Origin: Sneathiella marina
GTDB taxonomy: Bacteria; Pseudomonadota; Alphaproteobacteria; Sneathiellales; Sneathiellaceae
NCBI RefSeq assembly: GCF_023746535.1
Contig: NZ_CP098747.1
Coordinates: forward strand, 3,771,501 to 3,835,500
Reading direction: 5' to 3'
Length of the DNA: 64,000 nt
Shown in pieces: positions 20,889 to 30,363 of the stretch. Positions within the stretch are counted from its first letter, which is position 1. Every line of letters starts with the position of its first letter. The translations under genes and the position numbers were made by a program. The notes beneath the pieces were generated by a model, which was not told the DNA's origin, did not search any database, and saw nothing but the letters and a program-made list of their open reading frames with translations.

Positions 20889-21662
20889 ATGCTTGCCGTC
20901 ATTTCGCCTGCCAAGAAACTTGATTTTGATCGGACCGATGTGCCGGACAGTTTTACCCAATCGGAATTTCTCGGCCAGACCAAAAAGCTGATGGTCCGCG
21001 GGCGGAAACTGTCGGTGGGTGACTTGAAGGGGCTGATGAATATCAGCGACGATCTGGGCGAGCTGAACCGCCAGCGGTTCAAGGCCATGAAACTGCCCTT
21101 CACCCCGGACAATGCCAAACAGGCCGCCTATGCCTTTAACGGCGATACCTATGCGGGGCTGCAGGCCTCAACCTTCGATGACGCCGATTTAAGCTATGCC
21201 CAGGATCATTTGCGCATCCTCTCCGGCTTGTATGGCCTGATTCGCCCCCTCGACCTGATCCAGCCTTACCGGCTTGAAATGGGCATCAAGCTGGATACGG
21301 ACCGGGGCAAGGATCTGTATCAGTTCTGGGGCGACCGGCTGTCCCGCAAAATATCAAATCTGCTGAAAGCGCATGAAACGCCGCTGCTGATCAATCTCGC
21401 CTCCAGCGAATATTTCAAGGCGGTAAAACGGAAAAGCCTGAAAGCCGAGGTGCTGACACCGGTGTTCAAGGAAATCAAGGGCAATGAGGCCAAGGTCATC
21501 GGCTTCTCGGCCAAGCGGGCGCGCGGCATGATGGCCCGCTATATGATCGCCAACCGCATCGACCAACCGGACGGCCTCAAGGATTTCAACGAAGAAGGCT
21601 ACAGCTTCCAGCCCGGCCTGTCGTCAGAGTCCGAATATGTCTTTACGCGGGTGATCAACTAG
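20889..21662 (+). CDS. yaaA: Peroxide stress protein YaaA (UPF0246)
   Basis: A 257-aa full-length YaaA. It starts MLAVISPAKKLDFDRTD and has the conserved SGLYGLIRPLDLIQPYRLEMG, LINLASSEYFKAV and FSAKRARGMMARYMI blocks. E. coli YaaA lowers intracellular free iron and protects against peroxide damage; the fold binds DNA. The reading frame is intact, yet its last ~38 codons are repeated twice downstream (22694-22811 and 23581-23682). This gene end therefore appears to be an integration target, and the present 3' end may have been supplied by an incoming element. Confidence 0.95.
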   Translation: MLAVISPAKKLDFDRTDVPDSFTQSEFLGQTKKLMVRGRKLSVGDLKGLMNISDDLGELNRQRFKAMKLPFTPDNAKQAAYAFNGDTYAGLQASTFDDADLSYAQDHLRILSGLYGLIRPLDLIQPYRLEMGIKLDTDRGKDLYQFWGDRLSRKISNLLKAHETPLLINLASSEYFKAVKRKSLKAEVLTPVFKEIKGNEAKVIGFSAKRARGMMARYMIANRIDQPDGLKDFNEEGYSFQPGLSSESEYVFTRVIN

Positions 21663-21665
21663 GGC
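21548..21665 (+). repeat. yaaA 3'-end repeat R1 (inside the intact gene)
   Basis: This is the last ~115 bases of yaaA plus TAGGGC. It matches R2 along 118 bases with seven mismatches and R3 along ~101 bases with six mismatches. R1 encodes DFNEEG and SSESEY where R2 and R3 encode DFSEEG and SSGSEY, so R1 is the diverged copy. Confidence 0.92.
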
Positions 21666-21707
21666 GATTACCTTGCTGTACTGCTTCAGATAGATTACCT
21701 TGCTGTA
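21666..21707 (+). repeat. Pair of 15-base direct repeats at the left edge of cassette 1
   Basis: GATTACCTTGCTGTA occurs at 21666-21680 and again at 21693-21707, starting four bases after the yaaA stop. The repeats start 27 bases apart. They could be recombinase-binding arms or promoter/operator elements of the downstream gene. The short palindrome ATTAC-AAT-GTAAT follows at 21719-21731. Confidence 0.6.
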
Positions 21708-21749
21708 ACTTACAGTCCATTACAATGTAATTTACGATAATGATCTACA

Positions 21750-22649
21750 ATGTCTGAAGAAGCACTCGCAAAAAATAACGATTATGAGAGTCAATGGTAT
21801 GAACAAGATATACCAATTCGCGGATGTCATCTCTCGTTTTCACAGATAAAAAATGCCTATCGAGAGCTTAGTGTACTTACAAAAAGTGAAGGAGAGAAAA
21901 TTGTTGATAAGCTAGATAAGTTAGAAGGCGAAAGTGAAGAGGAATTCACCAAGCGCAAAGAATTCCTAAAGCTTGATGCATTTAAGGTGACTGTTTCTAT
22001 TGTAGGTTTCGATGGTCAAACTGTATACGGCGAAACAGAAACTGTTTTCGACTCTAGTAATTTACCCATTCCGATCAAAACTATTTTCTTCACAAATGAA
22101 ACATCCTACCGCCGCAATGCAAATCGGACTTTACCAAATAATCGATTTTCTTTTTGGATTAATTTTGACAAACCGCCCTTATTTGACCCAAACCCACTTG
22201 TATCAAGTCCGACGCACAACGATAGCAAAGCAGAGATAAAAGCAGAAGATGTTATCTTTTTTCGCGCCGTTCAAAATATTTTAAGCGAAAAACTCAGTTC
22301 AAATAAAAAATGGTACTCATTCGTTCACGAGAAATTTGCCTATGACGCAGGCGTTTGGTTAATTGCTATTCCATATGCTCTCTACTGGATAACAATATAC
22401 TCAGATTCTTTCTTTCGCTCAGATGACAATTTAGCTTCTTTCCGCATTGCTTTCTATATTTATGCTTCAGGATTGTCGCTACTTTTCTACCGAGGTTTGT
22501 TCTCTTACATCAAGTGGGCCTTTCCAGTGAATATTTTGGAAGAGAACAAAGACCACGCGACCCGACACCGTCTCTTACTTGGAGCGATAATGCTCGGCCT
22601 AATCGTTTCTGGAGTAAACTCAATGATCAAAACTTTTGCTGGGTTTTAG
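21750..22649 (+). CDS. Orphan 299-aa membrane protein, cargo of cassette 1
   Basis: I do not recognise a named function. The first ~190 residues are cytoplasmic-looking: a charged helical stretch (residues ~40-75, KSEGEKIVDKLDKLEG) and a beta-rich part (~76-140) with several aromatic residues. Three hydrophobic segments follow at ~200-217, ~231-252 and ~274-290, preceded by KKWYSFVHEKFAYD, which looks like a conserved membrane-entry motif. The gene is markedly richer in A+T than its neighbours and has no clear RBS. Position in a small cassette beside a toxin-antitoxin cassette suggests a defence or fitness cargo, but that is inference. Confidence 0.75.
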   Translation: MSEEALAKNNDYESQWYEQDIPIRGCHLSFSQIKNAYRELSVLTKSEGEKIVDKLDKLEGESEEEFTKRKEFLKLDAFKVTVSIVGFDGQTVYGETETVFDSSNLPIPIKTIFFTNETSYRRNANRTLPNNRFSFWINFDKPPLFDPNPLVSSPTHNDSKAEIKAEDVIFFRAVQNILSEKLSSNKKWYSFVHEKFAYDAGVWLIAIPYALYWITIYSDSFFRSDDNLASFRIAFYIYASGLSLLFYRGLFSYIKWAFPVNILEENKDHATRHRLLLGAIMLGLIVSGVNSMIKTFAGF

Positions 22650-22693
22650 TGGTCAAAAAATTGGATGGAAAGCATCATTCCGTAACAACAATA

Positions 22694-22811
22694 CGCCAAC
22701 CGCATCGACCAACCGGACGGCCTCAAGGATTTTTCCGAAGAAGGCTACAGCTTCCAGCCCGGCCTGTCGTCAGGGTCCGAATATGTATTTACGCGGGTGA
22801 TTAATTAGGGC
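22694..22811 (+). repeat. yaaA 3'-end repeat R2
   Basis: A 118-base copy of the yaaA end, ending TAGGGC like R1. It differs from R1 at seven positions and from R3 at one position over the shared ~101 bases. The reading frame codes for the YaaA C-terminus (from ANRIDQPDGL to FTRVIN) but has no start and no upstream part. The remaining gene-free sequence up to brnT (22812-22990) contains only the brn promoter and operators. Confidence 0.9.
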
Positions 22812-22917
22812 CCGCCCGCGACTACATGACAACCTTGGCTGGAAATGTTTTGTGGATCAGCTGATACCGCTCCTGGGAATTATTCTTACTCTTCTATTTC
22901 CCAAAAATATGATTAAT

Positions 22918-22963
22918 TGTAACTACAAAAAATATTGACTTTTCCATTAAATGTAGTTACATT
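22918..22963 (+). promoter_or_regulatory. brnTA promoter flanked by two operator palindromes
   Basis: TGTAACTACA (22918-22927) and TGTAGTTACA (22952-22961) are each TGTA-N2-TACA palindromes, and are exact inverted copies of each other. Between and over them lie TTGACT (22935-22940) and TACATT (22958-22963), a -35/-10 pair with 17-base spacing. BrnA antitoxins are known to repress their own promoter, so these are good candidates for its two binding sites. Confidence 0.65.
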
Positions 22964-22990
22964 AAGTCCGTAGATGCGGAGAATGATACA

Positions 22991-23245
22991 CTGTTTGAGT
23001 GGGATGAGAAAAAGAGCCAGCAAAACAAAGCAGTTCGCGGCTTTGATTTTTCGATTGTTGAACAATTTGATTTCGACACCGCCTTGACAATTTTGGACAA
23101 TCGCAAAGATTATGGAGAAATTCGTTTCCGCTCAACCGGTCGTATCGAGGGTAAATTATTTTCCGTTACTTGGACAGCCAGAGGTAAAAATATACGGATC
23201 ATCAGCGTCCGCCGGGCACATAAAAAGGAGTGTAGAGGATCATGA
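22991..23245 (+). CDS. brnT: BrnT-family toxin (ribonuclease), non-canonical start
   Basis: The frame codes for an 84-aa BrnT-type protein: FEWDEKKSQQNKAVRGFDF at the N-terminus and SVTWTARGKNIRIISVRRAHKKE near the end. BrnT is a RelE-fold RNase neutralised by BrnA. There is no ATG, GTG or TTG at the expected start. A CTG at 22991 is preceded by GGAG with nine bases of spacing. Alternatively an ATG at 22983 is one base out of frame, so a one-base deletion may have disconnected it. The TGA overlaps the brnA ATG (ATGA). The toxin may thus be poorly expressed or inactive. Confidence 0.7.
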   Translation: MFEWDEKKSQQNKAVRGFDFSIVEQFDFDTALTILDNRKDYGEIRFRSTGRIEGKLFSVTWTARGKNIRIISVRRAHKKECRGS

Positions 23246-23517
23246 CAGATAAAAAGAAAGTGGATCCATTTATGGTGGATGACGACAATCCAGAATGGAC
23301 CGAGCAGGATATTAAAAATGCGCGGCCGGGACGTGAGATTTTCAAAGAGCTCGGAATGACCGCCCCCAAACCAAAGATCGGTCGTCCAAAACTGACTCAC
23401 CCGAAAAAACAGGTCACGGTGCGCCTTGATGCCGATGTCATCGCGCGCCTTAAAGAGGATGGCGGGAAGTGGCAGACAAAACTGAATGACACCTTACGCT
23501 TGGCATTGAAACTTTAA
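23242..23517 (+). CDS. brnA: BrnA-family antitoxin
   Basis: A 91-aa antitoxin. The N-terminal half (DDNPEWTEQDIKNARPGREIFKELG) is the BrnT-wrapping region and the C-terminal half (KQVTVRLDADVIARLKEDGGKWQTKLNDTLRLAL) is the ribbon-helix-helix type DNA-binding dimer domain. It binds BrnT and represses the operon. Its ATG overlaps the brnT stop. RBS is AGGAG/GAGGA just before the overlap. Confidence 0.93.
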   Translation: MTDKKKVDPFMVDDDNPEWTEQDIKNARPGREIFKELGMTAPKPKIGRPKLTHPKKQVTVRLDADVIARLKEDGGKWQTKLNDTLRLALKL

Positions 23518-23580
23518 AGGACAAATGTGGTTGGAATTGCAGAAGCTTTGGCGGCGGTGCAGGGCGCGACATGATCACCA

Positions 23581-23682
23581 ACCAACCGGACGGCCTCAAG
23601 GATTTTTCCGAAGAAGGCTACAGCTTCCAGCCCGGCCTGTCGTCAGGGTCCGAATATGTATTTACGCGGGTGATTAACTAGG
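23581..23682 (+). repeat. yaaA 3'-end repeat R3
   Basis: A ~102-base copy of the yaaA end at the right edge of cassette 2, ending with a TAG in frame. It is nearly identical to R2 (one mismatch) and differs from R1 at six positions. Just upstream (~23560-23580) there are scraps resembling yaaA sequence further 5' (GGGCGCG, CATGAT) with deletions, suggesting that this copy was once longer. On a gene-end integration model R3 would be the displaced original end of host yaaA. Confidence 0.88.
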
Positions 23683-23777
23683 ACGCTCAATCTCTCTTTT
23701 GTGTCATATGCCGCCTCCAGAGTTGACCGAGACCGCCTTAACGGTCCCCGCCAGTTTTTCCTTTTTTACGGTATCGA

Positions 23778-24125
23778 TCAAGTCCAACCATCCAGGTTGA
23801 GGGGCAGGACGCTTCCAAGCCACAGGGGATAATCCCCATGATCTGCCAGATCATTCTCGGTTAAGGGATGTACCATCATGTTTAGGCGGTTTTGATTTAG
23901 CATTACCCATGGCATTACCTCGGCGAACTCACTCGCTGGAAAACTCGCAACAAACATTGGTCGTTGATGCGTCTCACTTAGATTTACTTCTTCAAACAAT
24001 CGGCTGATCTTGATTTTGAACTTTTGACTCATCGCCTCCTTCAACGCGATAGCCTTCAATTTACTCTCTGTGTCGTGAAAATAAACATGTACGTGATATC
24101 CTGAAATAATCTCTTTATCTAACAT
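23778..24125 (-). CDS. DOPA 4,5-dioxygenase family protein
   Basis: A 115-aa protein with the DOPA-dioxygenase-like fold (PF08883 type). The start motif GYHVHVYFHD and the later HQRPMFVASFP and NRLNMMVHPLTENDLADHGDYPLWLG blocks contain the metal-binding-type histidines. Relatives cleave catecholic rings, but most bacterial members are uncharacterised. I chose the ATG at 24125, with AGGT eight bases before, which gives the usual length; the frame stays open further upstream through the divergent LysR gene. It is probably controlled by that LysR. Confidence 0.85.
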   Translation of the reverse strand: MLDKEIISGYHVHVYFHDTESKLKAIALKEAMSQKFKIKISRLFEEVNLSETHQRPMFVASFPASEFAEVMPWVMLNQNRLNMMVHPLTENDLADHGDYPLWLGSVLPLNLDGWT

Positions 24126-24222
24126 GGCTCTTACCTCGAATTCATATCGGCTTGGAATTGTTCCGCCGTGTCCAGGATAAATACTATGTCCAATATTGAT
24201 GATAAATGGTCTTATTGACGTT

Positions 24223-24240
24223 ATACTATCAACATAGTAT
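24223..24240. promoter_or_regulatory. Inverted repeat between the DOPA-dioxygenase and LysR genes
   Basis: ATACTAT-CAAC-ATAGTAT is a perfect 7-base inverted repeat 9 bases before the lysR start. ATACTAT occurs again at 24181 and as part of the lysR coding start (24254). This fits the recognition/activation-site arrangement of LysR regulators at divergent promoters. Confidence 0.6.
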
Positions 24241-24249
24241 TGATAATTA

Positions 24250-25182
24250 ATGGATACTATTGAGGGAATGCGGACCTTTCTGGCGGTCGTCAATGACGGG
24301 TCATTTGTTGGTGGCGCACGGAAACTGATGATATCGCCGGCGTTGGCCAGCAAGTATGTCGGAGAACTGGAACATCGGCTTGGTGTGCGTTTGCTAAACC
24401 GTACCACCCGTTCTTTGAGTGTTACCGAACTTGGTGAGGAGTATGTCGATCGCTGTCGCCATGTTCTCGCATCATTTGATGAAATGGAAAATGTCACAAG
24501 TGCCGGCAGCAAGGAACCACAAGGTGACCTGAAGCTTACGGCACCTGCGGCCTTCGCAGAACGCTATCTGATACGGGCGATTGCTGCCTTTCGACGGAAA
24601 TATCCCGGAATTAGCGTCGATTTGGATATTAGTGATCAACAAGTGGATCTGGTGTCACAGGGGATTGATCTGGCAATTCGCGATGGGGCTCTCGACGATT
24701 CCAGTTTGGTCTGCAAACGATTGTTGCCAGCCTCCAATGTCATTTGCGCAACGCCAGAATATCTAGCGGAAAATGGCACGCCAACGCATCCGCTGGAATT
24801 GGAGAACCACGCCTGTATTCTGGATGCAAATATGGGTAATAGAAACTATTGGCCGATGAATATTGAGGGTCGTCAACAAAATATTCCGGTTTCGGGTGGG
24901 TTTGCAGCGAACAGCCTGAACGCCATCCATGCCTATGTTCTGGCGAGCACCGGGATTGCCAAGCTGCCTGCATATTGCGTGGGTGATGATTTGAAAGCTG
25001 GCCGACTCGAGGAAGTTTTAAGAGCCTACGCCACATCGCATCAGGCAATATATGCGATATACCCGCACAGTAAATATTTACCAAATAAAGTCCGGCACTT
25101 TATCGATTTTCTAGGGCCATGGTTTAAACTTGACAGCTCCTTCAGTACCAGCCTCCAGTTACCCGCCAATTCGATGGGCTGA
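24250..25182 (+). CDS. LysR-family transcriptional regulator
   Basis: A 310-aa LysR regulator. The N-terminal winged helix (residues ~1-60, MRTFLAVVNDGSFVGGARKLMISPALASKYVGELE) is followed by a periplasmic-binding-like effector domain (residues ~90-295). The subgroup resembles the DSF-type regulators that control neighbouring oxidoreductases (RLLNRTTRSLSVTELG). It is divergent from the DOPA-dioxygenase gene, with a palindrome between them. The 166 bases after its stop hold nothing recognisable. Confidence 0.92.
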   Translation: MDTIEGMRTFLAVVNDGSFVGGARKLMISPALASKYVGELEHRLGVRLLNRTTRSLSVTELGEEYVDRCRHVLASFDEMENVTSAGSKEPQGDLKLTAPAAFAERYLIRAIAAFRRKYPGISVDLDISDQQVDLVSQGIDLAIRDGALDDSSLVCKRLLPASNVICATPEYLAENGTPTHPLELENHACILDANMGNRNYWPMNIEGRQQNIPVSGGFAANSLNAIHAYVLASTGIAKLPAYCVGDDLKAGRLEEVLRAYATSHQAIYAIYPHSKYLPNKVRHFIDFLGPWFKLDSSFSTSLQLPANSMG

Positions 25183-25348
25183 ATTGCCTGTGAATGCCAG
25201 TTAAGGGTTAAGCCTGGTTCCTGGTATACCCTCTTTGAAAGGGCCAATTCGAGACAATCCACAAGAGGCCGGACAGTCGGCCTGTCGGCTTGTTCAGCTG
25301 TTCGCCCGGGTATTGGGTTGGACCCCTCACAATCGGTTTGCATGGGTC

Positions 25349-25834
25349 TCACAACGGCGATAGTTTCTTGACCGCTTTCCAGAAATCCAACCGTTGTCCG
25401 TCGCCGAGATCGCGGGACATTTCCTCCGTGACCACATAACCGAGGCCTTCGTAAAAGCGCCGGGAGGGCAGGGAAATATCGAGCCGGGATTGGGTAACAC
25501 CGGCATCAATGGCGGCGTTTTCCAGGGCGGTCATGAGCATCTTGCCACGCCCCCCCTTCTGTAGTCCCGGATCAACAAAGACGGCAAAGATAGTATCGTC
25601 AACGGTGCTGCCCGTGCCGACAAGCGTTCCGTTCTCCTCCATGACCAGCACGGTTCCGGAACTGCACCGATCGAGAATTTTCTGTTGGGAGTGGAAGGAT
25701 TTGAAAAACTCGACCGCCCTCGGCGGATAAACCTCGGCATAGCTGGTATCGATAACATGGTGGATAAGCCGTGTTAGGCGCGCAAGGTCGCGTTTCTCAA
25801 AAGGGCGAAGAGTTATGTCACTTGGCGGGCTCAT
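25349..25834 (-). CDS. GNAT-family N-acetyltransferase
   Basis: A 161-aa GNAT protein. The acetyl-CoA loop is VDPGLQKGGRGKMLM (Q/R-x2-G-x-G/A pattern) at residues ~88-102, and the final motif SRRFYEGLGYV is typical. The substrate is unknown. It is monocistronic between the LysR gene and the TetR gene of hydroxylase locus 2. Confidence 0.85.
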   Translation of the reverse strand: MSPPSDITLRPFEKRDLARLTRLIHHVIDTSYAEVYPPRAVEFFKSFHSQQKILDRCSSGTVLVMEENGTLVGTGSTVDDTIFAVFVDPGLQKGGRGKMLMTALENAAIDAGVTQSRLDISLPSRRFYEGLGYVVTEEMSRDLGDGQRLDFWKAVKKLSPL

Positions 25835-25897
25835 ATGGAAATTCTAACACAGGGAGCAGGACTGAAAAAGCCGGGCAAGGACAGATGTGACCGGCCT

Positions 25898-26500
25898 CTA
25901 TCCGTCGCGGCTGGGTGACAGCATTCTGAAGATCATGTCGTGCAGGGTCTTGCGGGCTTTTTTGGATGGCTTTCGTCCCGTCAGGCCAGCACGCATACCC
26001 AGACCCTCTATGGCATCCAGAATCAGGTCCACGCTTTCCTCGATATGAAGTCCGGATCGCATGATCCCTTGCGAGTTACCCCGGATAATGGTCGCGGACA
26101 GGACATCCATAAGCCGCTGGCGGTTCACGTCAAACTGTTTGGCAATTGCGGGGTTTCGAATGGCTTCAGCCGTAATATCGATTGTCAGGACGGCATTCTC
26201 CGTGCTCGACACATAGTCAAGATAGCCATCGACGAATCTGGCTATGGCTGTTCCGGGATCTTCGCTTATATCCAGTTCCGTCGCAAATTGCTCAAGATCC
26301 ATCCCGTCCAGCCGGGCAATCTCGGCAATAAGCGCGTCCTTGCCCGGAAAATGATTATATAGATTGCCAAGGCTGACATTCGCCTGTTCGGCGATGTCGC
26401 GGATGCCGGTCTGGTGGATGCCCTTTCTGATAAAACAGATCACCGCCGCCTCCACGATCAAGGCGCGCCGCTCTTCTTTTGCCTTCTTACGTGTGTTCAT
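25898..26500 (-). CDS. TetR-family regulator of hydroxylase locus 2
   Basis: A 200-aa TetR protein with its HTH at residues ~12-58 (ALIVEAAVICFIRKGIHQTGIRDIAEQANVSLGNLYNHF). It is divergent from a two-gene operon for a small membrane protein and a sterol-desaturase-family enzyme. A 20-base inverted repeat sits over the shared promoter (26546-26565). The arrangement mirrors the TetR/hydroxylase locus at 13.2-15.3 kb. Confidence 0.88.
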   Translation of the reverse strand: MNTRKKAKEERRALIVEAAVICFIRKGIHQTGIRDIAEQANVSLGNLYNHFPGKDALIAEIARLDGMDLEQFATELDISEDPGTAIARFVDGYLDYVSSTENAVLTIDITAEAIRNPAIAKQFDVNRQRLMDVLSATIIRGNSQGIMRSGLHIEESVDLILDAIEGLGMRAGLTGRKPSKKARKTLHDMIFRMLSPSRDG

Positions 26501-26516
26501 TATTTTGTCCTACCTC

Positions 26517-26565
26517 TTGCACCGGGCTCTGTATATAGCTATATAATGAACAATCGTTCGTTCAT
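26517..26565. promoter_or_regulatory. Overlapping divergent promoters with TetR operator
   Basis: Rightward: TTGCAC (26517-26522), 17 bases, TATATA (26540-26545). Leftward: TTGATG (complement of 26563-26568), 17 bases, and the same TATATA hexamer, which lies within the perfect palindrome TATATAGCTATATA (26532-26545). The inverted repeat ATGAAC-N8-GTTCAT (26546-26565) covers the rightward start point and the leftward spacer, as expected for a TetR operator controlling both directions. Confidence 0.65.
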
Positions 26566-26591
26566 CAATAGATAACAGACAGGAAAATGTG

Positions 26592-26807
26592 ATGAAACTG
26601 CAGAAATACTGGTATCTCGGTTTCCTCGGCCTTATCGGGCTGTACAAGCTGCCGGTGTTATGGGCGGCTTTCACCGGTGCCGGGCATTGGGGTGATTTCC
26701 TCAATATTCTATGGCTGTACTGGTTTTTCTGCTTTGTGCCGGAGCGCAAACCGGAGGGACAAGAGCAGGACAAGTTCGACACTCCAGAGGTTTCCCATGA
26801 CAATTGA
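26592..26807 (+). CDS. Small two-helix membrane protein (71 aa)
   Basis: A short protein with two hydrophobic segments (YLGFLGLIGLYKLPVLWAA and DFLNILWLYWFFCFV, residues ~6-25 and ~34-50) and a charged tail. The G-F-L-G-L repeat recalls DUF3796-like small membrane proteins; no function is known to me. It is the first gene of hydroxylase operon 2 and overlaps the next start by 11 bases, so it may be a partner or chaperone of that enzyme. AGGA lies eight bases before the ATG. Confidence 0.75.
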   Translation: MKLQKYWYLGFLGLIGLYKLPVLWAAFTGAGHWGDFLNILWLYWFFCFVPERKPEGQEQDKFDTPEVSHDN

Positions 26808-27672
26808 ACATGTGGTCTCGCTTTTTGAAACCCACCCCATAATGATCGGTGTGGTGATGCTGTTCGTCATAAATCTCTGCCTCACGGGAATTGAAATCGC
26901 TCTTGATCTGTTGACGAAGAAACAACGGCGATGGAAAGATACCGCAGCAAATTGTGCCCTTTTTATTTTTCAGCAAGTGATTGAAAGAACCGCACTCGCC
27001 TCGCTCGGGTTTGTGGCGTTGCTGCCGTTTTTCATTTTCACACCCCTGCAGATCCCGATGAACCTATGGACCTGGATCCTGGCCCTGCTGGCGGCCGACC
27101 TGAGTTATTACTGGATGCATCGGGTCGAGCATCAAATCCGCCTCCTCTGGGCGAGCCATAGCGTGCATCATAGTTCGCAGGACTATAACCTGACCGTCGG
27201 CTTTCGGCTGAGCTTTGTGGACGGGCTTTTTGAATGGGCATTTCTGGTGCCGATGATTTTGCTCGGCTTCAATCCTTTTCAGGCGATCGTTGCCCTTGTG
27301 CTCGTCGCCCAGTACCAGCACTGGATACATACGGAGCGTGTGGGCAAGCTGGGCTGGCTGGATGCGCTGTTCAACACGCCGTCAAACCACCGGGTTCATC
27401 ATGGCTCGAACTCCCGATATCTGGATAAAAACTATGGCGGGATCCTGATGATCTGGGACAGGATGTTCGGCACGTTCGAACGGGAGGATGAAAAGGTCGT
27501 GTACGGCCTGACCCGCAATATCAGAACCAATAACCCGGTCAGGATTATCTTCACAGAGTTTGGCGACATATGGCGCGACATACGGAAATGCCGAACTGCG
27601 CGGGACAGGCTTAAGATTATCTTCGGCGGTCTGTCCTGGCGACCGGATTATTTCACCGATCAGAAAGACTGA
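26797..27672 (+). CDS. Sterol desaturase / fatty acid hydroxylase family protein (copy 2)
   Basis: A 291-aa membrane di-iron enzyme, clearly paralogous to the product at 13896. It has the histidine clusters HRVEHQ, HSVHHSS and NHRVHHGSN, and the block YLDKNYGGILMIWDRMFGTF is nearly identical. It starts inside the preceding small gene (ATG 26797, GAGG RBS). Its stop overlaps the 3' end of the convergent methyltransferase gene by 13 bases. Substrate unknown; lipid, sterol or carotenoid hydroxylation are the family possibilities. Confidence 0.88.
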   Translation: MTIEHVVSLFETHPIMIGVVMLFVINLCLTGIEIALDLLTKKQRRWKDTAANCALFIFQQVIERTALASLGFVALLPFFIFTPLQIPMNLWTWILALLAADLSYYWMHRVEHQIRLLWASHSVHHSSQDYNLTVGFRLSFVDGLFEWAFLVPMILLGFNPFQAIVALVLVAQYQHWIHTERVGKLGWLDALFNTPSNHRVHHGSNSRYLDKNYGGILMIWDRMFGTFEREDEKVVYGLTRNIRTNNPVRIIFTEFGDIWRDIRKCRTARDRLKIIFGGLSWRPDYFTDQKD

Positions 27673-28415
27673 GGCCGAACAGTCTCGTCAGCCGTGATCA
27701 GGCGATAGCCGCAATCAAGCGCGTCAAGAGGGATCAGGCTGGCGTATCGTTCTTCCCAGGCGCCGCTTTTCAGGTCTTTTTCAAGCCTGTTCAAGCCGTC
27801 CGATACGTCGCCTATGGCCCAGAAAGAAGACATGGCGGCCCGCACCCGCTCCTCCAGATACGCCGCCGGACGCCGCCAGTAGCCTGCCAGGAAACCGTCG
27901 GTACAGTCATGGGGAATGGGCATCGGTGTAATCGTCACATTGTCCAGCCAGTTCCCATAGTCGGTCAGCGGCGGCATTTGCCCCTCATCCAGTGTCACCA
28001 GCGCCGGGAAGTAATCGGCCAGCCAGAAGCCGCGAAAGGCCGGGTCATATGTCAGGAAAACAATCCTGCCCCGGGCGACACGGCGCATCTCCCGGACGCC
28101 CTTCTCCTTGTCAGACCAGTGATGAATGGTCAGCACGGCCATGGCGGCATCGAAGGAATTATCGCCAAACGGCAGGTCCTCTGCACTGGCCTGAAACACC
28201 GAAGCGGTTGACAAAGGGCGCTGCGCGATCATCTCGGCGGAGGGTTCAACCGCCGTGACCTGGCGGTTCTCCGGCTCGTACGACCCGGCCCCCGCGCCCA
28301 CATTCAGAACCGTTTGCGCCGCGCCCAGGGCGTCGTCAATCTTGCGGGAAATGCGGGCATCCGGTTGCCGCAGCCGCGCGTAATTCAGGCCAATTGTATC
28401 GTATAAATCATTCAT
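27660..28415 (-). CDS. SAM-dependent methyltransferase (class I)
   Basis: A 251-aa methyltransferase. Motif I is VLNVGAGAGSYEP (residues ~35-48), followed by the acidic post-I strand VTAVEPS and motif IV DAAMAVLTIHHWSD; this is the UbiE/COQ5-like methyltransferase 11 domain. The substrate is not predictable. It is transcribed away from merR, 28 bases downstream of it, so cotranscription with the metal regulator is possible. Confidence 0.88.
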   Translation of the reverse strand: MNDLYDTIGLNYARLRQPDARISRKIDDALGAAQTVLNVGAGAGSYEPENRQVTAVEPSAEMIAQRPLSTASVFQASAEDLPFGDNSFDAAMAVLTIHHWSDKEKGVREMRRVARGRIVFLTYDPAFRGFWLADYFPALVTLDEGQMPPLTDYGNWLDNVTITPMPIPHDCTDGFLAGYWRRPAAYLEERVRAAMSSFWAIGDVSDGLNRLEKDLKSGAWEERYASLIPLDALDCGYRLITADETVRPQSF

Positions 28416-28442
28416 GTCTTTCGATCCCCTGTAGCGGTTTGC

Positions 28443-28841
28443 CTATGTGGCATAGAGGGCTTCAATGATCGGGCAATCAGGCACCTCGGGCCCCCGGCAT
28501 TCCGCCACCATCTTTTCAAGGACGCGTTCGAGCTTTCTCAAATCAGTTATTTTCTGCCGAACGTCCCTTAAATGGTCTTCCGTGACGGATTTAACCTCTG
28601 AACAGCTGGGGTTGCCACCATCCACAAGGGTCAGCAAGAGGCGTATTTCGTCAATGGAAAAGCCCAATTGACGGCACCGGACAATCAGGAACAAACGCTT
28701 TACCTGTTCGGTCCCATATTGCCGATGACCCCCCGCCGTCCTGCCGGTCCGGGTCATAAGTCCGATTTTCTCGTAATAGCGGATGGTTTCGATATTGCAT
28801 CCGGTGAGATGGGAGAGGGCCCCGATCCCCAAAGCTTTCAT
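28443..28841 (-). CDS. merR: MerR-family metal-sensing regulator
   Basis: A 132-aa MerR protein with an N-terminal HTH (IGALSHLTGCNIETIRYYEKIGL, residues ~6-28) and a long dimerisation helix. Cys80, Cys115 and Cys123 match the mercury-binding triad of Tn501 MerR (82, 117, 126) in spacing except one residue fewer in the last loop (ECRGPEVPDC). The extra vicinal Cys of ZntR is absent, which argues for Hg(II) or a similar soft metal. It is divergent from merF, with a typical MerR operator between them. Confidence 0.88.
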   Translation of the reverse strand: MKALGIGALSHLTGCNIETIRYYEKIGLMTRTGRTAGGHRQYGTEQVKRLFLIVRCRQLGFSIDEIRLLLTLVDGGNPSCSEVKSVTEDHLRDVRQKITDLRKLERVLEKMVAECRGPEVPDCPIIEALYAT

Positions 28842-28865
28842 GGGAATAATTCCTTAAATTAATGC

Positions 28866-28896
28866 TTGTATCTGTAGTGACTACAGATTGTAACAT
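28866..28896 (+). promoter_or_regulatory. MerR-type promoter with 19-base spacer and dyad operator
   Basis: TTGTAT (28866-28871) and TAACAT (28891-28896) are separated by 19 bases, the over-long spacing that MerR activators correct by unwinding DNA. The spacer contains ATCTGTAG-TGA-CTACAGAT (28870-28888), a perfect 8-base dyad. Transcription would begin at about 28903, the A of the merF ATG, so the merF message may be leaderless. Confidence 0.75.
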
Positions 28897-28902
28897 GAGG
28901 AC

Positions 28903-29115
28903 ATGACGAATAAAAAGCTCTTCAATATTGGCCTTGCCGGAACGGTGATCACCGCCCTTTGCTGTTTCACACCTGTGCTGGTGATCCTCTTGGGGGCTGT
29001 CGGATTGTCAGCGCTTGTTGGCCTGCTGGATTACATCCTCTTGCCTGGGCTGGCCGTATTTGTGGCGATTACAGGATATGCATTATGGAAAAGACGACGC
29101 CAGACACCCCAGTAG
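28903..29115 (+). CDS. merF: MerF-like mercury transporter without C-terminal Cys pair
   Basis: A 70-aa two-helix membrane protein matching MerF, including ALCCFTPVLVILLGAVGLSAL with the vicinal Cys pair in helix 1 and the YILLPGLAVFVAITGYALW helix 2. MerF moves Hg(II) across the inner membrane. In known MerF a second vicinal Cys pair follows helix 2; here the protein ends KRRRQTPQ without it. The stop lies 31 bases inside the downstream gene for a Cys-rich protein, which may supply those thiols. Confidence 0.88.
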   Translation: MTNKKLFNIGLAGTVITALCCFTPVLVILLGAVGLSALVGLLDYILLPGLAVFVAITGYALWKRRRQTPQ

Positions 29116-29321
29116 AGATCATCCCCGTCTCGACCCTGACCTGCCCGGAATGCGGCCATTCGGAAAGTGAAACCATGCCCACCGATGCCTGTCAGTGGTT
29201 TTATGATTGCAAAGGATGCGGCGTCGTTCTGAAACCGCTGGCCGGCGACTGCTGCGTCTATTGTTCCTACGGCACGGTCGCCTGCCCGCCCATACAGGAG
29301 GGTGATTCCTGTTGTAGCTAG
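29085..29321 (+). CDS. GDCCVxC-domain Cys-rich protein
   Basis: A 78-aa cytoplasmic protein of the GDCCVxC family. It contains CPEC, CKGC, the signature GDCCVYC and a C-terminal GDSCCS, giving ten cysteines. In some bacteria a family member is a selenoprotein; here all positions are Cys codons. The start (ATG 29085, AGGA ~10 bases before) overlaps merF by 31 bases in another frame. The family often sits next to merF/merT-like genes, so a thiol-relay or metal-binding role is likely but unproven. Confidence 0.87.
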   Translation: MEKTTPDTPVEIIPVSTLTCPECGHSESETMPTDACQWFYDCKGCGVVLKPLAGDCCVYCSYGTVACPPIQEGDSCCS

Positions 29322-29340
29322 CAGGATACCTTTTCCTAAT

Positions 29341-29372
29341 ACCGCTGCCACCTAAAACCGCTGCCACCTAAA
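29341..29372. repeat. Tandem duplication of 16 bases over the ybiB stop codon
   Basis: ACCGCTGCCACCTAAA occurs twice in tandem (29341-29356, 29357-29372). On the minus strand each copy contains TTTTAG, so the stop of the ybiB gene is duplicated. It looks like a recent slippage or unequal-recombination event without effect on the protein. Confidence 0.85.
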
Positions 29373-30363
29373 ACCGTTGTTTGTCCCGCGCCTGCCACAA
29401 ATGCCGGGCTTGTTTTTCCGCCGCGTCAATGGTCAGCGCGGGTTCCAGTTGTTTCAGGGCAAAGGCGACCGTACCGATGATGGCCAGTTCCGGCACGGGT
29501 AAGTCCAGCTCGCCCTGCCACATCCGCAACAACTCTGCCGGATCGAGATTTTCTTCCCGCCATTTATACACCGATTGCCCGGTCATTGCCGGCCATTCCT
29601 GCACCACAGCCTCGCCTGCCACCAGCGCGTCGACCAGCACCGGCTTCATGGGATTGCGCTGCACTTCACCGCCGCCGCCCTTGAAAATCATGCTGTTCTG
29701 CTGCGCGAGATGCCGGACGGTGTCCAGATGCAGCGGCTTGTAAGGCGGATGGAATACGCCCTGCATTTGATGGGGGGCGCGGAACGGGTTGAGGTCGCGG
29801 CCAAAGGTATTCACCGCCGTGCGCACACCGAGCAGGGGGCGCAGCTCGAACAGGGACTGCAGGGCCGGGCAAAAATTTTCCAGCCCCACATAGACCAGAT
29901 TATCCGATCCGAACGCCGCCGCCGCTGAGGCCAAGCTGGTGGCTTGCGGAATGTTGAAGACGGACAGTCCGGGCCGTGTCGGCGCATAACCGTCCTCATA
30001 CCCGGCGATCCCATGCATCAGGATCCTGACACCCTGATCGGCCAGCAGGCGCGCCGCCAGAATAAACCAGGGCTGCTGCCTGTGACGATCGGCATAGGAC
30101 GGCCAGTCCAGTTCAATTTCGGCGGTGACCCCCGGATCAAGAAAGCAGTCGCGGGCGGCGGCAACCATGCCGGCCAGTTCCTCCCCGGTTTCCCCGGTGC
30201 GCCTCAGCAACAATAAAAAAGCGCCGATTTGCAACGGATCAGCCTGACCGTCCAAAATCATGCCCATGGCGGCCCGGGCTTCCTCAAAGGTTAAATGCCG
30301 CCACATTTTCGGGCCCTTGCCCAGAATGCGCACATACTCGGCGAACGGATGGTCAGATGTCAT
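29368..30363 (-). CDS. ybiB: YbiB/TrpD2-like glycosyl (phosphoribosyl) transferase family protein
   Basis: A 331-aa protein of the anthranilate-phosphoribosyltransferase fold. It starts with the helical TrpD N-domain (LTFEEARAAMGMILDGQADPLQIGAFLLLLR) and continues with the alpha/beta domain, but the GTGGD PRPP loop of true TrpD is not conserved; instead MHGIAGYEDGYAPTR occupies that region. This matches TrpD2/YbiB proteins, which bind nucleic acid rather than anthranilate. It stands alone between the mer genes and the DUF4175 gene. Confidence 0.85.
   Translation of the reverse strand: MTSDHPFAEYVRILGKGPKMWRHLTFEEARAAMGMILDGQADPLQIGAFLLLLRRTGETGEELAGMVAAARDCFLDPGVTAEIELDWPSYADRHRQQPWFILAARLLADQGVRILMHGIAGYEDGYAPTRPGLSVFNIPQATSLASAAAAFGSDNLVYVGLENFCPALQSLFELRPLLGVRTAVNTFGRDLNPFRAPHQMQGVFHPPYKPLHLDTVRHLAQQNSMIFKGGGGEVQRNPMKPVLVDALVAGEAVVQEWPAMTGQSVYKWREENLDPAELLRMWQGELDLPVPELAIIGTVAFALKQLEPALTIDAAEKQARHLWQARDKQRF

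Follow-up and report, generated by a model that had tools for sequence, protein, structure and literature searches.

A tandem of yaaA 3' ends bounding two small cargo units in Sneathiella marina: a probable relic of accretion at a gene end

Organization of the yaaA locus

In the window analyzed here, i.e. the whole stretch of 64,000 nucleotides from the Sneathiella marina genome (contig NZ_CP098747.1), the gene yaaA is followed by two further copies of its own 3' end, and an orphan gene and a brnTA toxin-antitoxin pair represent the sole cargo of the units bounded by these repeats. The following features were identified at the locus (ORF, open reading frame):

20889..21662, + strand: yaaA (PF03883, peroxide stress protein YaaA; Pfam E 2.6e-84), 257 aa, intact
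21548..21665, + strand: R1, 3' end of functional yaaA (repeat and whole-genome search)
21666..21707, + strand: 15-nt direct repeat GATTACCTTGCTGTA, two copies (21666-21680 and 21693-21707), directly behind R1
21750..22649, + strand: ORF299, orphan A+T-rich protein, predicted to have an alpha/beta part at the N-terminus and three long helices at the C-terminus; putative membrane protein
22694..22811, + strand: R2, second yaaA tail, 94% identical to R1 (repeat and whole-genome search)
22973..23245, + strand: brnT toxin frame (PF04365; Pfam)
23242..23517, + strand: brnA antitoxin (PF14384; Pfam)
23581..23682, + strand: R3 core, third yaaA tail, one mismatch to R2, possible 5' extension to ~23565
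23685..29367: DNA that the relatives do not have at the junction of yaaA with the next gene, encoding DOPA dioxygenase, LysR, GNAT, TetR, FA_hydroxylase (sterol-desaturase-like), methyltransferase, MerR and MerF (Pfam) and a GDCCVxC protein (plasmid annotation)
29368..30363, - strand: ybiB/TrpD-like glycosyltransferase gene, ancestral convergent neighbour of yaaA (Glycos_trans_3N above cut-off, Glycos_transf_3 below cut-off)

The repeat search returned three direct copies of the yaaA tail at positions 21548-21665 (R1), 22694-22811 (R2, 94%) and 23567-23684 (R3, 88% ungapped over 118 positions), and these tails were the only family of direct repeats of at least 40 nt reported for the window. 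When R1 was used as query against the whole 4.07-Mb single-contig genome, three places were hit with E-values of 1.8e-56, 7.8e-47 and 1.3e-39, which exclude a chance origin of the copies. R1 and R2 differ at 7 of 118 positions, corresponding to two residue changes at the protein level, R1 and R3 at six positions over the core 23581-23682, and R2 and R3 at one. The C-terminal frame of YaaA is kept in all three copies, as is the stop codon, TAG, and R1 represents the true end of the 257-aa gene. Both the coordinates and the mismatch counts given in a preliminary description of this DNA were reproduced, as was its statement that frame and stop persist in three copies of the same orientation.

On their 3' side, the sequences of R1, R2 and R3 part ways within a few bases past the stop, and on their 5' side R2 and R3 start no more than about 15 nt apart in yaaA coordinates. 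The 5' end of R3 may reach approximately 16 nt further, to ~23565, if a 9-nt gap is allowed, with a score that was equalled in 1 of 100 shuffles. The two copies of GATTACCTTGCTGTA behind R1 are spaced 27 nt start to start, and exact copies occur nowhere else in the genome.

Empty site in relatives and extent of the island

The genus sample comprised 24 genomes including S. marina, 13 of which featured a yaaA match, resulting in 12 relatives for comparison (11 of the 24 had no yaaA match). The YaaA of the nearest relative showed 78% amino acid identity. A single yaaA end was present in all 12 relatives, and directly behind it a convergent 331-aa gene was located, corresponding to the gene at 29368-30363 of the window. 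Gene order on both sides was shared in the six relatives with wider DNA, and the coding regions of yaaA and the ybiB-like gene overlap at their stops by 4 and 8 bases in the two relatives that were measured (G013 and G020). Since both genes abut in 12 of 12 relatives and are 7.7 kb apart in the window, an island is located at the yaaA 3' end of S. marina. In the relatives, nothing corresponding to 21663-29367 is located between the two genes, and the island spans from the yaaA stop to position 29367, not merely to R3. The insertion at yaaA assumed in the preliminary description is thus borne out in that DNA was inserted at the 3' end, empty sites exist and the gene end is intact; the island is larger than the R1-R3 segment to which that description had confined it. 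Direct repeats resembling the attachment sites attL and attR are located at a gene 3' end and flank the units, as is the case for decayed gene-end integrative elements and cis-mobilizable elements (CIMEs).

With the relatives as outgroups, R1 appears by parsimony to be derived at a Phe and an Asn codon and R2/R3 at a Gly, a Val and an Ile codon, i.e. about three changes on each of the two lineages, which are few sites. At the Glu/Gly site, R1 has the A of all 12 relatives; R2 and R3 both carry G. Based on these few sites, the comparison tends to favour R1 as the better-preserved copy, opposite to the polarity of the preliminary description, in which R1 was the element-borne replacement.

Cargo of the repeat-bounded units

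The cargo units are poorer in G+C (0.38 and 0.45) than the window (0.52). ORF299 encodes 299 aa at 38% GC and has no Pfam match; its structure model reached a mean pLDDT (predicted local distance difference test) of 69.8, i.e. moderate confidence. No match of value to ORF299 was obtained in plasmids, phages, PADLOC, PHROGs and the PDB (by sequence and fold), and searches of viral contigs with ORF299 and with a 23-mer of the yaaA tail were likewise without match. Homologues of ORF299 were found in three other genomes among 385 (class sample) and two others among 398 (phylum sample). A flanking gene-end repeat is absent at all five; in one of them (G386), whose contig starts with the gene, two weak repeats rich in G+C occur on one side. 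The homologue from the same genus (G014, L127 9172-10234) is frameshifted, and a tRNA-Gln gene ends (3' end) at a distance of ~90 bp from it.

The cargo named in the preliminary description, an A+T-rich orphan ORF and brnTA, was confirmed, with the membrane nature of ORF299 being a prediction. The stop of ORF299 lies 44 nt ahead of R2 and that of brnA 63 nt ahead of the R3 core. Of the 23 other genomes of the genus, one contained a BrnT relative. Ahead of the BrnT domain (22961-23000), no in-frame ATG, GTG or TTG is present; CTG at 22991, ATT at 22961 or a damaged start are possible.

Search for other occupied yaaA ends

In order to evaluate yaaA as a general target, tails were searched in several collections. 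Further yaaA tails were found in S. marina alone, both in the family sample (25 genomes, 13 with a tail match) and in the class sample, in which 67 of 385 genomes matched the tail and more than one match occurred in no other genome. A second, weak match in one family genome (G002, E 0.0017), situated ~80 kb away within an unrelated frame of 687 aa, was not counted. Moreover, 84 distinct public or genus loci (86 in total, two contigs appearing twice; flanks of up to 10 kb, shorter at contig ends) showed no repeat of comparable length at the yaaA end. Weak DNA or peptide matches in 18 other loci (at most 41 nt, best E 1.6e-4) were taken as chance, being short and scattered in place and strand.

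Within the downstream DNA of these loci (680 kb, 1326 frames), no frame resembled P4-type, XerC-like or XerD-like recombinases at E 1e-3, and controls were recovered. A Pfam scan downstream of yaaA, with no more than two ORFs taken per locus, represented 73 of 80 loci and covered 119 of 120 ORFs, the remaining one being omitted for size; the 25 commonest of 143 families were listed, so that a single integrase could be hidden. Among phage records, nine YaaA matches were obtained, eight of them over at least 80% of the query, and among viral contigs three, none with a tail repeat; the Streptococcus phage record concerned features an annotated yaaA among cell-like genes.

The idea of a family of minimal cassettes moved in trans at yaaA, put forward in the preliminary description, is not supported by these results, as neither another occupied yaaA end nor a recombinase with yaaA specificity was identified. 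Other cargos bounded by yaaA ends did not appear in the family, class and public loci, and larger, recombinase-bearing versions related to the three tyrosine recombinases of the host were not encountered downstream of yaaA in the 84 loci. Furthermore, among the literature matches listed (most subscription journals being outside the scope), no report on the yaaA 3' end as an insertion site was found.

Proposed origin of the island

Based on the comparison with relatives and on the structure of the repeats, the units are interpreted as relics of gene-end integration of the e14/icd type that restored yaaA and whose recombinase was either lost or never located on the units, a reading to which we give an even chance. 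As to its class, the locus is most likely an old relic, i.e. a scar of the known kind of gene-end accretion rather than a novel type of mobile cassette. The relatives show the ancestral arrangement, in which the stops of yaaA and of the convergent ybiB-like gene overlapped or adjoined each other, and the comparison places the insertion at the junction of both genes in the S. marina lineage. At least two small units, carrying ORF299 and brnTA, respectively, would have arrived in separate events, of which the tail copies are visible. Each event may have added a further, equally oriented copy of the yaaA 3' end (about 0.1 kb) while yaaA stayed intact: an incoming circle equipped with its own yaaA tail would recombine with the chromosomal tail, restore the gene and push the older tail downstream. 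Recombinase genes would later have been lost, or would never have resided on the small units, resulting in a CIME-like tandem with R1, R2 and R3 as att-like sites.

Stepwise gene-end integration is supported by the empty site in 12 of 12 relatives, the same-orientation repeats including the stop, the sharp tail ends, the low GC content of the cargo and the match to e14/icd; the proximity of the G014 ORF299 homologue to tRNA-Gln was also counted in its favour. According to the available part of PMC11148124, the duplication caused by e14 in icd amounts to 165 bp, with 12 exchanges, two amino acid changes and an intact frame, which is very similar to the 118 bp, seven exchanges and two changes at yaaA; the duplication is given as 163 bp in the available part of PMC6379469. 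As far as these parts describe it, e14 resembles the locus in that the 3' end of a coding gene is duplicated in intact frame and the working end would come from the element. The differences are that e14 is a prophage with an integrase, whereas here two tiny units are present and neither a phage structural nor an integrase gene was found in them. Tandem decayed elements with common att sites are described as CIME accretion in the accessible sections of PMC5704250; common to that description and the present locus are recombinase-less tandem units at a gene 3' end, three repeats in the same orientation and a restored target gene. In line with CIMEs, integration and transfer genes are absent from the island (ORF list and Pfam of main ORFs). 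The island, known here from sequence alone, differs in that no related integrative and conjugative or integrative and mobilizable element or integrase was found, the repeats measure 0.1 kb and the units ~1 kb, and the right-most repeat is not located beside ancestral DNA. An autonomous integrase-bearing element at the yaaA end, as expected for CIMEs, did not occur in the collections searched, among which there was no conspecific genome.

Several observations weigh against gene-end integration. No other yaaA end was found occupied in the family, class and public samples, and the ORF299 homologue adjacent to tRNA-Gln lacks a flanking repeat and is oriented oppositely towards the gene end. Between R3 and the ancestral DNA lie 5.7 kb of unrelated genes, the right-most att-like site thus being separated from the ybiB-like gene, and the whole-genome search with R1 yielded no fourth yaaA tail at the right border. 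R3 is therefore not simply readable as the displaced host end, and the corresponding claim of the preliminary description is doubtful. The 5.7 kb were either inserted separately or form a third unit that is headed by R3 and has lost its native right-hand tail by deletion.

A recombinase was not found in the island by means of the ORF list, Pfam analysis of the main ORFs and phmmer searches with the P4-, XerC- and XerD-like proteins of the same genome, in agreement with the preliminary description, which had characterized the cassettes as lacking one. The genome encodes three Phage_integrase (PF00589) proteins, labelled from their sequences as XerC-like, XerD-like and a tRNA-Ala-site integrase. 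The latter, of P4 type, is located at the far end of an island of ~22.6 kb (L149 8805-8880 to L130 11736) bordered by tRNA-Ala(ggc) and a 45-nt copy of the tRNA-Ala 3' end. This island and the yaaA tail share no core of more than 6 bases, and the tRNA-Ala integrase was therefore rejected as a trans-mobilizer of the yaaA units. The Resolvase family had no match in the genome, and no candidate enzyme for movement in trans was identified there. Moreover, no dif-like 28-mer was found at the borders, the best candidate matching 14 of 22 arm bases, within the range of shuffles (E. coli dif consensus), and no attC-like fold was found for the three tails, whose z values of 0.5 to 1.7 correspond to weaker folding than that of shuffles; pdif/XerCD modules and attC sites were rejected on these grounds.

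Alternative explanations

Homology-driven sequential displacement of the tail is a less likely, yet serious, alternative origin of the tandem: DNA from a close-kin donor with cargo behind yaaA would enter by homologous recombination in yaaA, and the older truncated tail together with its cargo would be pushed downstream. The routes conceivable for such a process, likewise to be regarded as tentative, are a RecA single crossover of a circle or homology-facilitated illegitimate recombination, for which no dedicated recombinase is needed, and none was found. Displaced truncated ends followed by cargo, presumably older downstream, are indeed present. The tails are 93-99% alike, compared to 78 of 105 identical positions for the tail of the nearest relative, which points to close kin as the source; however, according to the available part of PMC11148124, element-borne tails as in e14/icd can also show species-level similarity. 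Similar anatomy is known from type VI secretion system (T6SS) loci of V. cholerae and contact-dependent inhibition (CDI) loci of Acinetobacter, in which displaced gene ends and non-homologous cargo accumulate in 5'-to-3' direction (PMC5361080 and PMC6336857, available parts). In these effector-immunity and CDI loci, displaced ends with older cargo likewise pile up downstream and no integrase is described in those parts; unlike there, where the gene end varies and encodes a toxin, yaaA is a housekeeping gene whose sequence is kept. Since the stops of yaaA and the ybiB-like gene overlap in relatives, selection alone could hold inserts at the stop codon. On the other hand, several inserts at one junction would be needed in one species, with none in 12 of 12 genus relatives, and displacement leaves unexplained why R2 and R3 start at nearly the same point of yaaA, a coincidence that illegitimate joins at random positions would not promote.

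Local duplication, which we consider improbable, would have copied the yaaA end in place (by replication slippage or end joining at a long staggered break) around independent inserts, ORF299 being first and brnTA later entering a copy. Such a later insertion of brnTA into a copied tail would make R2 and R3 the closest pair, and their single difference, compared to six to seven towards R1, is what a younger R2/R3 duplication would leave; the restriction of the pattern to S. marina among the samples searched also fits. The changes, few as they are, are distributed about evenly on the R1 and R2/R3 lineages and not concentrated on non-functional copies, and the low-GC cargo lies exactly between the copies, both of which argue against it. 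An integron-like array, in which a trans-acting recombinase would have added units consisting of a gene and a yaaA tail (ORF299 with R2, brnTA with R3) one by one downstream of a native R1, appears very improbable. The yaaA tail would then be a portable recombination site and the locus an integron-like system of compact single-gene units on a housekeeping gene end, which is just as far-fetched. The short distances between the cargo stops and the following tails agree with compact units, and the G common to R2 and R3, where R1 and all 12 relatives have A, suggests that R2 and R3 may never have been functional ends. Against an array of this kind stand the missing candidate recombinase, the lack of an attC-like fold, the absence of any other array from the class sample and the 84 loci, and the ORF299 homologues elsewhere, which are devoid of a yaaA-like tail.

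Relation to other elements at yaaA and implications

Returning to gene-end integration as the preferred interpretation, the yaaA locus has been described as an insertion site in another context: a strand-biased circularizing integrative element (SE) resides in the yaaA promoter of a Vibrio (PMC9345347, available part), and the SE core intA/tfp/intB/srap is reported, in the parts available of PMC9345347 and PMC10214605, from Gammaproteobacteria and not from other taxa. The locus is the common point; SE is located in the promoter and carries the core genes, whereas no integrase-like ORF was found in the island (phmmer, Pfam of main ORFs), tfp and srap not having been searched. An island inserted at recA of V. 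cholerae (PMC4405046) was considered for comparison as well and set aside. With its position squeezed against a convergent overlapping gene, the yaaA 3' end joins those gene ends at which islands are built up stepwise. If the cargo varies between conspecific strains, the locus would offer a small, tractable case for distinguishing site-specific accretion from homology-driven tail displacement, two processes that leave near-identical scars.

Database matches of the island and its right border

No plasmid or phage record covered 80% of the island. In the 60 of 155 plasmid records listed, individual genes or portions of genes were matched, in most cases those of the methyltransferase or the GDCCVxC protein; three plasmid records with 95-99% identity to the island stand outside these 60, and a stricter search gave one 51-base match. 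The sole phage match in the DNA search with the island corresponded to the yaaA gene of the phage. The DOPA dioxygenase encoded behind R3 shows at most 44% identity to any other listed in the genus sample. At the right border, the following repeat was observed:

29342..29373: 14-nt core CCGCTGCCACCTAA, two copies with a 16-nt period; a third partial copy adjoins at the start of the ancestral DNA (end of the ybiB-like gene)

Both exact copies of CCGCTGCCACCTAA in the genome are located at this border and nowhere else.

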